From assembly GCA_021789565.1 (NCBI GenBank), contig JAJYJL010000346.1, positions 1 through 7,570 of the forward strand: a stretch of DNA of 7,570 nt. Reading direction: 5' to 3'. The notes beneath the pieces are model-generated. The model was not told the DNA's origin. It ran no database searches and saw only the letters and a list, made by a program, of their open reading frames with translations. This DNA is from Acidobacteriota bacterium (GTDB lineage Bacteria > Acidobacteriota > Terriglobia > UBA7540). Position 1 is the stretch's first letter; each line of letters opens with the position of its first letter. The translations under genes were made by a program, and so were the position numbers. This document shows positions 2,879 through 7,515 of this stretch, piece after piece.

Positions 2879-2987
2879 GCAAAAGCCTCATGAGGTCGGC
2901 GCGAGAACTGTAGACGTACACGCACAAATAGCCGCTACCGGCCAGCGGCGTTATCCAACCCGAAGCACGGCGCTTGACAAGGGCTGA
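2871..2987 (+). CDS. Doubtful 38-codon open frame
   Basis: ATG at 2871 overlaps the end of the coiled-coil gene by 8 bp and the frame runs to TGA at 2985-2987, coding 38 residues starting MSEQKPHEV. The MSE start matches other small genes of this window, but there is no well-spaced ribosome binding site, the composition is unremarkable, and the frame runs across two inverted repeats and the -35 box of the promoter below. It is listed because nothing else occupies 2879-2973; it may well not be translated. Confidence 0.2.
   Translation: MSEQKPHEVGARTVDVHAQIAATGQRRYPTRSTALDKG
2886..2955. repeat. Inverted repeats upstream of the internal promoter (possible operators)
   Basis: Two dyads are visible: a perfect 10-bp palindrome CCTCATGAGG at 2886-2895, and GCCGCT (2931-2936) facing AGCGGC (2944-2949) across a 7-nt loop, with ATA/TAT just outside. 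They lie about 80 and 25 bp upstream of the -35 box. They could bind a repressor or activator. The second could also form a weak hairpin at the end of the upstream transcript, but it has no T-run and so is not an intrinsic terminator. Confidence 0.3.
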
Positions 2988-3002
2988 GAGGGGCATTATG
3001 AT
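2974..3002 (+). promoter_or_regulatory. Near-consensus sigma70 promoter
   Basis: TTGACA at 2974-2979 (perfect -35), 17-nt spacer, TATGAT at 2997-3002 (one mismatch to TATAAT). Predicted start of transcription is an A around 3008-3010. It is the clearest promoter in the window and lies in the only sizeable intergenic gap. The dyads upstream could be control sites. It would drive the structured RNA described next and, by read-through, the replication gene. Confidence 0.75.
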
Positions 3003-3008
3003 TCTTGA

Positions 3009-3107
3009 AAGCATTGTGTCGGCAGTGCGAAAGAGGCTTGATTCTGGTATTCGGTGCCGACACACCGAACCCTTGGCAGCGGGGCCGACCAGAGTCAAGC
3101 CTTTTTT
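3009..3107 (+). ncRNA. Structured small RNA, about 100 nt, three-way junction (candidate phage regulatory RNA)
   Basis: The unit is bounded by a sigma70 promoter and an intrinsic terminator. A basal stem pairs 3034-3047 with 3089-3102 (14 pairs, one G-U), extended inside by 3048/3088 and outside by 3029-3033 with the T-run. It encloses hairpin 1, TTCGGTG (3050-3056) with CACCGAA (3063-3069) and loop CCGACA, and a weaker hairpin 2, CCCT (3070-3073) with GGGG (3081-3084). The 5' leader 3015-3024 (TGTGTCGGCA) is perfectly complementary to 3055-3064, so it can form a pseudoknot with loop 1 or replace hairpin 1. No coding signal is convincing here. Size and branched shape recall the C4 antisense RNAs of P1/P7-like phages, but I cannot confirm membership. 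Location before the replication gene suggests control of replication or immunity. Confidence 0.6.
3034..3107 (+). terminator. Intrinsic terminator formed by the basal stem of the small RNA
   Basis: The right arm of the long basal stem (3089-3102) runs directly into a T-run, TTTTTT at 3102-3107. The ribosome binding site of the replication gene (GGAG at 3111-3114) starts three bases later. It should end the small RNA and stop read-through from the upstream recombination genes unless antitermination occurs. The stem is interrupted by the two inner hairpins, so it is not a standard compact terminator. Confidence 0.6.
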
Positions 3108-3120
3108 GTTGGAGCAGCTA

Positions 3121-3714
3121 ATGGCGGATCGTTACTTCTGGCTCAAGCTTCAAACAAAGTTCTTTGCTACTGACGATATCAGGGTCATTCAGGCGCAACC
3201 AAACGGAGACAAGTACGTGGTATTTTGGCTCAAGCTTTTGTTGAAAGCGATCGAGCAGAGCGAACCCGGATTGCTCCGTTACAAGAAGGATATTCCGTAC
3301 AGTCCCGAAACGCTCGCTATCGTAACTGACACGGATATCGACGTAGTCAAGAGCGCGATTCAGCTGTTTCAATTGCACAAAATGATCACACTGTGCGACA
3401 ACGGAGACATCTGGATTGAGTCTATTCACGAGATGATAGGGTCAGAAAGTACGTCAGCCAAACGAGTTAGGGCATTCAGAGCCAGAAGAGCAAGGGCGTT
3501 ACTTGGTAACGGTGATGTAACAAAAGGTAACACAGAGTTAGATCTAGAGAAGAGTAAGAAAAAAAAAGAGAAGATTGCGAAAGACGAGGACGAAGAACGC
3601 TCCCGGAGCTCGCCGCTTGAAGCGGCTCCGGTCGCTCAAATACCGAAGGAGATTGCTGAGCCGTTAGCTCAGTTGGAAAGCACGTTAGCGCGGGCCAAAC
3701 GATGGAAACACTAA
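3121..3714 (+). CDS. Phage replisome organiser (N-terminal domain family), replication initiation protein
   Basis: 197 aa. Proteins with this N-terminal domain bind the phage origin and help load the replicative helicase. Family features are visible: YFWLKLQTKFF at 5-15, the I--IQ-QPNGDKYVVFWLKLLLKAIE stretch (broken here: IQAQPNGDKY, VVFWLKLLLKAIE) at 23-45, G-LLRYK-DIPYSPETLAIVT at 50-69 and a winged-helix-like LFQLHKMITLCDNGDIWI at 82-99, followed by the family's SES--AKRVRAFRAR link. The rest is a charged linker with KSKKKKEK and DEDEER and no DnaD- or DnaC-like domain that I can see, so the protein is on the short side. Start at 3121 is preferred: GGAG with six-base spacing, and the M-A-D-R-Y-F-W start fits the family. 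A longer frame from 2974 would begin inside the -35 box. Confidence 0.85.
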   Translation: MADRYFWLKLQTKFFATDDIRVIQAQPNGDKYVVFWLKLLLKAIEQSEPGLLRYKKDIPYSPETLAIVTDTDIDVVKSAIQLFQLHKMITLCDNGDIWIESIHEMIGSESTSAKRVRAFRARRARALLGNGDVTKGNTELDLEKSKKKKEKIAKDEDEERSRSSPLEAAPVAQIPKEIAEPLAQLESTLARAKRWKH

Positions 3715-4073: not shown

Positions 4074-4526
4074 ATGACGAAGAGAGAAGCGAGTGAGAGT
4101 CTTGCTACTGCGCTCAGCGAGTGGCGGGACGCGGGAGGCCCAGTGGAAGCGGTTGTCGTGGCAATCCGGCAGCTTGAGGAATCAACCCAGGACGATCCGC
4201 CCGAGATCCAGCCGGGTGAGCTACATCTTTGCCCGCAGCGCGAACTCGACGCCGCCCGAGCGACGATCAAGGAGCTGGAAGGTGATCTTGAATACGAGAA
4301 GCAACAGCACGGGATCACGTCGGCGGGAACGGATGTACTCGTGAAACTCGCGATCGAGCGGTGCGCGGGAGTCGTGAAAGCTCACAGCGAACACATGTAT
4401 GGCTGTTACACAGAATTGGACGCCGACACTGACGAAGCTGATCGGCTGCTCGCCGACATATCGATGCTTGATGACATAACCCGCGAAATCCGCGCGCTCC
4501 CGGCGAAAGGAGGAAGCGATGAGTGA
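4074..4526 (+). CDS. Accessory phage protein, Ead/Ea22-like layout, unknown function
   Basis: 150 aa. The start at 4074 has AGGAGG at 4062-4067; a frame from 4008 is possible but lacks such a site. The N-terminal 40 residues are helical (SLATALSEWRDAG, VEAVVVAIRQLEE); residues about 55-78 form a probable coiled coil (ELDAARATIKELEGDLEYEK); the C-terminal part contains IERCAGVV and ends with DDITREIRALPAKGG. The modular make-up of coiled coil plus an ERC ... IRAL tail is typical of variable phage early proteins such as Ead/Ea22, whose role is poorly known. The same tail type appears in the 102-aa protein at 4742. It overlaps the next gene by 8 bp. Confidence 0.65.
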   Translation: MTKREASESLATALSEWRDAGGPVEAVVVAIRQLEESTQDDPPEIQPGELHLCPQRELDAARATIKELEGDLEYEKQQHGITSAGTDVLVKLAIERCAGVVKAHSEHMYGCYTELDADTDEADRLLADISMLDDITREIRALPAKGGSDE

Positions 4527-6295: not shown

Positions 6296-6742
6296 ATGAA
6301 CCGAGGATACTTCGAAGTTGGGGTATATCACCCAAAAACCGAAACAAATATCGGTACTCTGTGGAGAAGCGCTAATCAACTGGGGGCTTCCGGTATCTTC
6401 ACAATTGGAGCAAGATATCACAAACAATCTTCCGATACTCTCAAGGCGTGGCGTCATATCCCACTTCGATGTTACGAAACGATAGAACAATTTCTATCAG
6501 TGCGGCCATACGATTGCCTGTTAATCGGAATAGAAATGGGCGGCATAGCGCTTGATCAATGGGAACATCCAGAACGGGCGATCTACTTGCTTGGGGCAGA
6601 GGATCACGGTCTTCCGGAAGAGATTCAGAAAATGTGCAACAAGGTGATTTCATTACGGTCTATCAATACGGCATCGTTCAACGTTGCAGTTGCCGGATCA
6701 ATAGTGATGTATGATCGGTGTTTTAGAAAGGTCCAAGCTTGA
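6296..6742 (+). CDS. SpoU/TrmH-type RNA 2'-O-methyltransferase (SPOUT fold)
   Basis: 148 aa, close to the minimal SPOUT domain as in TrmL. Family motifs are all visible: motif 1, TNIGTLWRSANQLGASG at residues 17-33 with N18, R24 and G30; motif 2, LLGAEDHGLPEEI at 98-110, with the G-x-E-x-x-G-L core; motif 3, SFNVAVAGSIVMYDR at 127-141 with N129. Motifs 2 and 3 form the trefoil knot that binds S-adenosylmethionine, and R24 is the catalytic-type Arg. No extra RNA-binding domain is present. The enzyme should methylate a ribose 2'-OH, most likely in a tRNA, but the target is unknown. The start has GAGG six bases upstream. Its TGA overlaps the TTG of the next gene. Confidence 0.88.
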   Translation: MNRGYFEVGVYHPKTETNIGTLWRSANQLGASGIFTIGARYHKQSSDTLKAWRHIPLRCYETIEQFLSVRPYDCLLIGIEMGGIALDQWEHPERAIYLLGAEDHGLPEEIQKMCNKVISLRSINTASFNVAVAGSIVMYDRCFRKVQA

Positions 6743-7355: not shown

Positions 7356-7515
7356 AATACAATCGAGTGATATCGTGGCAGCTGCAATAACGAGTGACAA
7401 AATAGCTAGTTATACCAACACTGTTCCCAACACTGTTCCCAACACTGTTCCCAAGATAAGAGCAAGGGGTTTCGTATCGGTCCGTTCGTGTTCGCGTGGG
7501 ACCCAGATAGACTGA
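7348..7515 (+). CDS. Small protein with NTVP repeats, probably frameshifted
   Basis: 55 aa as read; ATG at 7348 with GAAGGAAA upstream. The N-terminus MSEIQSSDIVAAAITSDKI is followed by three NTVP tetrapeptides encoded by 12-bp DNA repeats. After them the residues (RARGFVSVRSCSRG) look like out-of-frame translation. In the -1 frame the same DNA codes KGFRIGPFVFAWDPDRLIS and then TKRRNHQ, ending at TGA 7542-7544 in an ATGA junction with the gene at 7541. A one-base loss between the repeats and about 7465 would explain this. Function unknown. Confidence 0.45.
   Translation: MSEIQSSDIVAAAITSDKIASYTNTVPNTVPNTVPKIRARGFVSVRSCSRGTQID
7417..7452 (+). repeat. Three tandem 12-bp repeats, AACACTGTTCCC
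   Basis: Three identical copies at 7417-7428, 7429-7440 and 7441-7452. Each holds AACA-C-TGTT, a short dyad. They code NTVP in the frame of the gene at 7348. They could be simple expansion of coding DNA or a set of binding sites for a regulator. Confidence 0.9.

Follow-up and report, generated by a model that had tools for sequence, protein, structure and literature searches.

A putative terminated leader RNA before a phage replisome-organizer gene, with a 5' loop complementary to its own terminator hairpin

What occupies the 242-nucleotide gap that precedes the replisome-organizer gene of a phage sequence in an Acidobacteriota assembly? The window, by which we mean the whole stretch of 7,570 nucleotides that was analysed (GCA_021789565.1, contig JAJYJL010000346.1), is a phage early region as judged from its gene content. 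Genes for an ERF-like annealing protein and a YqaJ exonuclease are followed by two small genes, the gap, and a gene of the Phage_rep_org_N family (hereafter rep), beyond which lie genes for NinG, a SpoU-type methylase, and an SLT-domain protein. An earlier note had proposed that the gap holds a self-contained small-RNA gene, possibly C4-like. The features that bear on the question are the following.

866-1603: ERF-like annealing protein
1600-2238: YqaJ exonuclease
2974-3002, + strand: sigma-70-like promoter, TTGACA-17-TATGAT, consensus score 11/12
about 3009-3107, + strand: predicted structured leader or small RNA of about 99 nucleotides; fold z -5.47, lowest-energy window
3011-3028, + strand: 5' hairpin, GCATT paired with AGTGC around the loop GTGTCGGC (3016-3023); pair probability about 1 in nested folding
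3035-3101, + strand: terminator hairpin, from folding, with a 14-bp basal stem and a structured apical part
3056-3063, + strand: GCCGACAC, complement of the 5' hairpin loop; p 0.005 against shuffled leaders
3102-3107, + strand: T6 tract, from the sequence
3111-3114, + strand: Shine-Dalgarno-like GGAG of rep, 3 nucleotides past the T-tract
3121-3714, + strand: replisome-organizer gene (Phage_rep_org_N), start placed by homologues

The promoter-like sequence is the best in the window: in 500 dinucleotide shuffles of the window, sites with a score of at least 11/12 numbered 0.008 per shuffle on the + strand, and 0.5% of 2,000 random window positions reach 11/12. Its spacing sets the presumed RNA start at 3009. 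The sequence from 3000 to 3110 has a minimum free energy of -54.7 kcal/mol, as compared with -32.2 +/- 4.1 for shuffled versions, none of which (0/200) was as low, and the 100-nucleotide window at 3011 on the + strand has the lowest energy among 1,494 windows on both strands. In the basal stem, 3035-3048 pairs with 3088-3101 through 14 base pairs, one of them G-U, and further A-U and G-U pairs lengthen it into the T6, which ends 13 nucleotides 5' of rep. No tandem repeat was found in the element. The promoter, the 14-pair basal stem, and the terminal TTTTTT described in the earlier note were thus all borne out. Its two inner hairpins were not recovered as the fold of lowest energy; forming them carries a penalty of about 9 kcal/mol, and nested folding gives them a probability of about 5%. 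The form that contains them leaves a CCGACA loop available for kissing. Nor is the RNA likely to be self-contained; because the ribosome-binding site of rep begins 3 nucleotides past the T-tract, it would also serve as the rep leader.

A feature that the earlier note had not seen is the 5' hairpin, whose loop GTGTCGGC is complementary to GCCGACAC within the terminator hairpin. The complementarity amounts to 10 nucleotides if 3055-3064 is counted with 3015-3024, and GCCGACAC could make up the greater part of the loop in an inner terminator hairpin. The p value listed above was obtained with the leader and inner boundaries set by hand. The 9-mers GTGTCGGCA and TGCCGACAC occur once each in the window. 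When folding of the growing transcript was modelled, the helix between leader and loop was dominant from 56 to about 80 nucleotides and was absent at 88 nucleotides.

Taken together, these signatures give about an even chance, in our judgment, that the element is a terminated leader RNA (a transcription attenuator) of rep, because a gene whose ribosome-binding site comes right after the T-tract should be expressed only by read-through. Host RNA polymerase would initiate at the 2974-3002 promoter, and most transcripts would adopt the 5' hairpin and the long terminator hairpin and end at the T-tract, yielding an RNA of about 99 nucleotides, with rep mRNA arising from read-through only. During synthesis, the 5' loop would first pair with the segment that is to become the apical part of the terminator. 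The resulting intermediate, which would go on to be a kissing loop or pseudoknot, may compete with or tune formation of the terminator, and the amount of Rep would thereby be held down or released. The proposal builds on the promoter and terminator signatures, the stable fold, the loop complementarity, and the ribosome-binding site after the T-tract, together with the recurrence and the class-level covariation described below; what is postulated is transcription itself, its termination and the read-through, the sense in which the kissing acts, and any involvement of a ligand or factor.

Does the anatomy recur in other phages? We retrieved from viral contigs 47 loci that encode rep-organizer relatives and measured the 300 nucleotides upstream of each rep start. 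Sixteen of the 47 upstream regions were read by eye; other GC-rich regions of equally low energy, such as those of L037, L038, L050, L054, and L056, lie outside that set. Seven loci (L022, L027, L061, L032, L034, L036, and L048, with L061 a repeat of L027) combined, as judged by eye, a terminator-like hairpin with a promoter-like site or T-run and with a complement of at least 6 nucleotides between leader and loop. In a test blind to complementarity, applied to the 47 loci and the window, we looked for a T-tailed stem of at least 9 bp closing within 62 nucleotides of rep. Such stems were present in 9 of 48 loci (the seven loci found by eye, L052, and the window), and a complement of 6-10 nucleotides accompanied seven of the nine (six of eight distinct sequences), the complement being 5 nucleotides in L032 (in an ungapped reading) and in L052. 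With the window set aside, the stem was found at 8 of 47 loci, six of the eight having a complement of at least 6 nucleotides. The test by pairing in related phages that the earlier note had proposed had a mixed outcome: such a stem is found at 8 of the 47 rep-organizer loci and is absent from the other 39. Because of those 39 loci, and because rep lies 0-20 nucleotides behind the preceding gene in all four cultured phages examined (out of 265 records with a rep match), the element appears to be dispensable for rep. In another phage (L088 3939-3976) a T-tailed hairpin without a leader complement stands directly before rep.

A descriptor scan, which is blind to short-stem variants such as that of L022, added one further copy to that of the L036 phage (G005) and revealed three in the L057 phage (G007), where none stands at rep. 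In all, ten occurrences of the anatomy were scored, spread over seven phage records (the window, G001, G002, G004, G006, two copies in G005, and three in G007), mostly with no evident sequence similarity; these ten elements are the basis of the statistics, from which L032 (G003) was left out. The best promoter-like site scored at least 9/12 in nine of the ten, a score reached at 7-9% of random positions; the exception, G004, scored 8, which 40% of random positions reach. In G007c the scored site overlaps the RNA start as defined, and TTGTAT-17-TAGCAT, picked by eye, fits better. At the other end, a Shine-Dalgarno-like motif (from a loose motif list) begins no more than 7 nucleotides from the defined RNA end in nine of the ten elements, leaving no space for a second promoter. 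The downstream gene is rep in the window, G001, G002, G004, G005b, and G006; it is an antirepressor gene with a KilAC domain in G005a, an HNH endonuclease gene in G007c, and an unknown 79-aa open reading frame in G007b, and in G007a a DNA methyltransferase open reading frame lies 226 nucleotides on. The HNH endonuclease gene behind G007c (L094 16402-17028, - strand) has no ATG soon after its Shine-Dalgarno motif, and the ATG that opens its frame sits in the 5' strand of the G007c element.

The two G005 paralogues allowed the structure to be examined for covariation. All 37 of 37 proposed pairs, including 7 kissing pairs, are standard in both copies, and 12 pairs are changed on both sides, one of them within the kiss. 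None of 500 shuffles was as good, and slid structures gave 0-2 double changes, a comparison that is favoured by the structure having been drawn from copy 1. In the three G007 copies, the 5' strands GGATGTC, GGTCAGT, and GGTATCC each have an exact complement in the terminator loop. Between L022 and L027, one kissing pair is changed from A-U to U-A and one stem pair from U-G to U-A, and none of the 28 pairs is lost; the shuffle control is uninformative with two sequences (251/500). We dropped the conservation between these two as evidence of RNA constraint, as the mosaic block that holds the element also spans about half of rep. The L022 and L027 phages (L069 and L070, rep start region) are mosaic, the element and first part of rep being near-identical and the flanks diverged.

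Comparison of leaders with shuffled leaders in eight elements gave a Fisher p of 1.5e-9 for the complementarity, a value that is too favourable in that G005a and the G007 copies were first found by scans using complementarity. For the four elements found by fold alone (the window, G004, G005b, and G006), Fisher p was 1.3e-4. Taken alone, neither G006 (p 0.16) nor G005a (p 0.08) reaches significance. In prefix folding the leader-loop helix reached a probability of at least 0.85 in six of ten elements once its 3' strand had been made, and in five of the six it was lost near completion; in G007c it was still present, with probability 0.91, when 80 of 83 nucleotides had been made. The remaining four formed no such helix, by a method that cannot represent a kissing loop.

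The strongest competitor of the attenuator is an RNA that acts in trans in the manner of P4 CI or P1/P7 C4, which we regard as possible though rather unlikely. The terminated RNA would build up, in a lysogen for instance, and through its loop bind the 5' loop of leaders newly made by that phage; termination would be forced or rep blocked, so that the loop pair would set the specificity of immunity. Complementary loops on one strand and loop pairs that differ among paralogues of one phage are in keeping with this, as is the position of the elements before replication and antirepressor genes, classes that are under the control of P4 CI (PMC4825925) and C4 (PMC12197685). The partner, however, is in the same molecule, and pairing in cis would be expected first. 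Moreover, the longest exact complements elsewhere are near chance length at 10-11 nucleotides, G007 being the exception with words of 13-14 nucleotides, and the GCCGACAC 8-mer recurs just once in the window, at 4422 within another gene, probably by chance.

Could the hairpin simply be a strong intrinsic terminator of the recombination operon, the promoter being that of rep or fortuitous and the loop complementarity having no role? Terminators between modules are common, and most related loci lack the element, but the promoter is upstream of the terminator, with no room left between the terminator and the ribosome-binding site, and the covariation covers kissing pairs as well as stems. Counts of stems served as controls. 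In 707 kb of real sequence (81 loci, duplicates removed by hand), the descriptor found 22 stems, 11 with a complement of at least 6 nucleotides and five with at least 8, the five being confined to the window, G004, and G007. Two shuffle sets gave 25 stems, seven with at least 6, two with 7, and none with at least 8. Compact terminator-like stems by themselves are only mildly enriched (22 in the real sequence against 25 in two shuffle sets), which counts against the attenuator. Among compact stems in element-bearing records, taken with no complementarity filter, nine of nine had a complement of at least 6 nucleotides, two of which (L094 6640-6570 and L096 4915-4852) look like chance. A 638-kb control, made up of 19 rep-organizer records (that of L060 and 18 in which no element was recognised) in 37 pieces that are mostly whole or nearly whole records and partly overlap the 707-kb loci, held 16 compact stems; five had a complement of at least 6, one of these 7, and none at least 8. 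We consider an ordinary terminator unlikely.

Less probable still is a structured RNA that works through a protein, either on RNA polymerase, of which the HK022 put RNA is an example, or as a decoy, with the kiss as a scaffold only. The element is indeed structured from near its first base to its last and is present in multiple copies in two phages with its shape conserved and its sequence freer; against this, no protein-binding motif common to all copies was noticed by eye, and no known family matches.

Finally, an ATG at 2998 opens a frame that runs through the element into rep and is preceded by a G-rich, Shine-Dalgarno-like stretch, and the public gene call P0001 (238 aa) starts there. In an alignment of P0001 with 19 homologues, similarity in the family begins at MxxRYFWLKL. 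Nothing similar to the 41-residue N-terminal extension was seen by eye in any of the 19, a few of which have other, dissimilar extensions. Since no homologue has a similar extension, 3121 rather than 2998 is probably the start of rep. The codon score of the 2998-3120 extension lies between coding and non-coding, being as low in 7.8% of in-frame pieces and as high in 3.3% of off-frame pieces. We judge it very improbable that Rep begins at 2998 with the hairpin inside its gene.

How does the putative attenuator compare with known systems? Two plasmid systems offer parallels. In ColE1 RNA I/RNA II, hairpins whose loops come from opposite strands kiss in the control of replication. The window element likewise has short, fully complementary loops on two hairpins, here before a replication gene, but both loops are on one transcript. 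Rep attenuators of the pT181/pIP501 type also place a terminator just before a rep gene, as in the window, but they need an antisense RNA from the opposite strand. Two further candidates were rejected. HDV-like ribozymes have a catalytic J4/2 segment between the P1 and P2 3' strands; in the G007 topology the place of J4/2 is, by our reading, 0-2 nucleotides, the stems are 16-20 bp, and there is no Rfam match. Type III toxin-antitoxin RNAs are tandem RNA repeats before a toxin gene, whereas the element has no tandem repeat and is followed by the replisome organizer.

Among phage RNAs, the nearest in working principle appear by analogy to be the P4 CI RNA and IsrK, and the nearest in setting C4. 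In PMC4825925, P4 CI is described as a leader upstream of replication genes with a 5' segment complementary to the RNA, the P4 replication genes as limited by premature termination, and the P4 "SeqA RNA" as a structural homolog of IsrK. The complementarity of 3016-3023 to 3056-3063 recalls seqA; here, however, the complementary loop is within an intrinsic terminator hairpin with a T6, and Rfam gives no match. No clear seqC-like downstream site was found; of the 7- and 8-mers of GTGTCGGCA only GTGTCGG recurs, once, upstream at 763. IsrK, of the Salmonella prophage Gifsy-1, is, according to the same paper, a short terminated RNA that shares one promoter with a read-through mRNA (PMC4825925), and the predicted order of promoter, terminated RNA, and read-through in the window fits this anatomy. 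The regulatory helix of IsrK pairs with the downstream orf45, whereas the window element would pair within itself and is followed by rep; a search with exact words found no complementarity of the short RNA to the downstream open reading frame. C4 (P1/P7, RF01695) is, according to PMC12197685, a short phage RNA with complementary loops that is tied to a lytic-switch gene. The window element too is a short phage RNA with complementary loops, but it has its own intrinsic terminator and its downstream gene is rep, not ant; only G005a has the C4-type position before an antirepressor gene.

Identity with C4 was rejected. Its covariance model had no match in the window, in 2880-3200 at E 10, in ten related sources, or around G005a, and no exact complementarity to the ribosome-binding site, as C4 loops would show, was found: the longest exact complement outside the element in the window was 10 nucleotides (about 10 expected), on the other strand and off the ribosome-binding site. 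Nor did Rfam 15 at gathering thresholds give a match to any family in the window or the ten related sources; at E 10 there were three matches in 2880-3200, all far under their cut-offs, and at E 5 nothing convincing, and no C4, around G005a. Of the regulatory RNA that the earlier note had envisaged, a structured, promoter-driven, terminated phage RNA is thus well supported by the sequence, and likeness to C4 survives as a loose functional analogy. None of these comparisons places the element within the P4 CI, IsrK, or C4 class. From its sequence, we take it to be of a known kind, that of phage leader RNAs tied to premature termination, with the predicted self-kissing terminator as its distinguishing mark, and it has the look of an RNA switch of a little-known sort. 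Judging from titles and the openings of abstracts, we found no published description of such an element.

We raise, tentatively and as a rather unlikely reading, a new class of phage riboregulator, a "kissing attenuator", in which a promoter-proximal hairpin or strand would be exactly complementary to the apical region of the terminator hairpin in the same RNA. It would serve several operons per phage through orthogonal loop pairs, each short RNA recognising only its own leader, and would set immunity or timing at the RNA level for genes of replication and of the lytic switch. If so, a compact RNA device would control replication and antirepressor genes in some phages, and it would be invisible to sequence-based searches for RNA families because mainly shape and self-complementarity are kept. 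Orthogonal loop pairs in one phage would make RNA-based immunity or timing testable with reporters.

Searches revealed no close relative of the window. Its Rep protein had none in viral contigs, and with the annealing protein as query 13 distant loci (28-36% identity) were obtained, in none of which was an element recognised before rep. Blastn of the window against phages and plasmids gave no match, and a 16-mer of the stem had four exact matches, checked by descriptor only, with no close relative of the window. Scans of genome contigs with the rep profile and the G005 core pattern found no relative, and in viral contigs the core pattern found only G005 itself. The Rep proteins of L036 and L022 gave 4 and 23 loci, several on known contigs, but no new element-bearing phage (21 upstream regions were read by eye and all new loci checked by descriptor), and that of L057 found only itself. 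A search for KilAC in 20 further records found 0/20. Blastn in phages gave no match with the L057, L036, and L048 elements and one 23-nucleotide match with that of L022.

Three minor observations concern the rest of the window. The SpoU-family RNA methylase gene at 6296-6742, unmatched in PHROG, adjoins the gene for the short SLT-domain protein in this phage early region. Positions 1-229 hold a 33-bp tandem repeat in 6.9 copies, whose open frame gives an 11-residue repeat of the type APARAEYDSVM. At 7415-7454 lies a perfect 12-bp tandem repeat, CCAACACTGTTC, in 3.3 copies, one frame of which reads NTVPNTVP.
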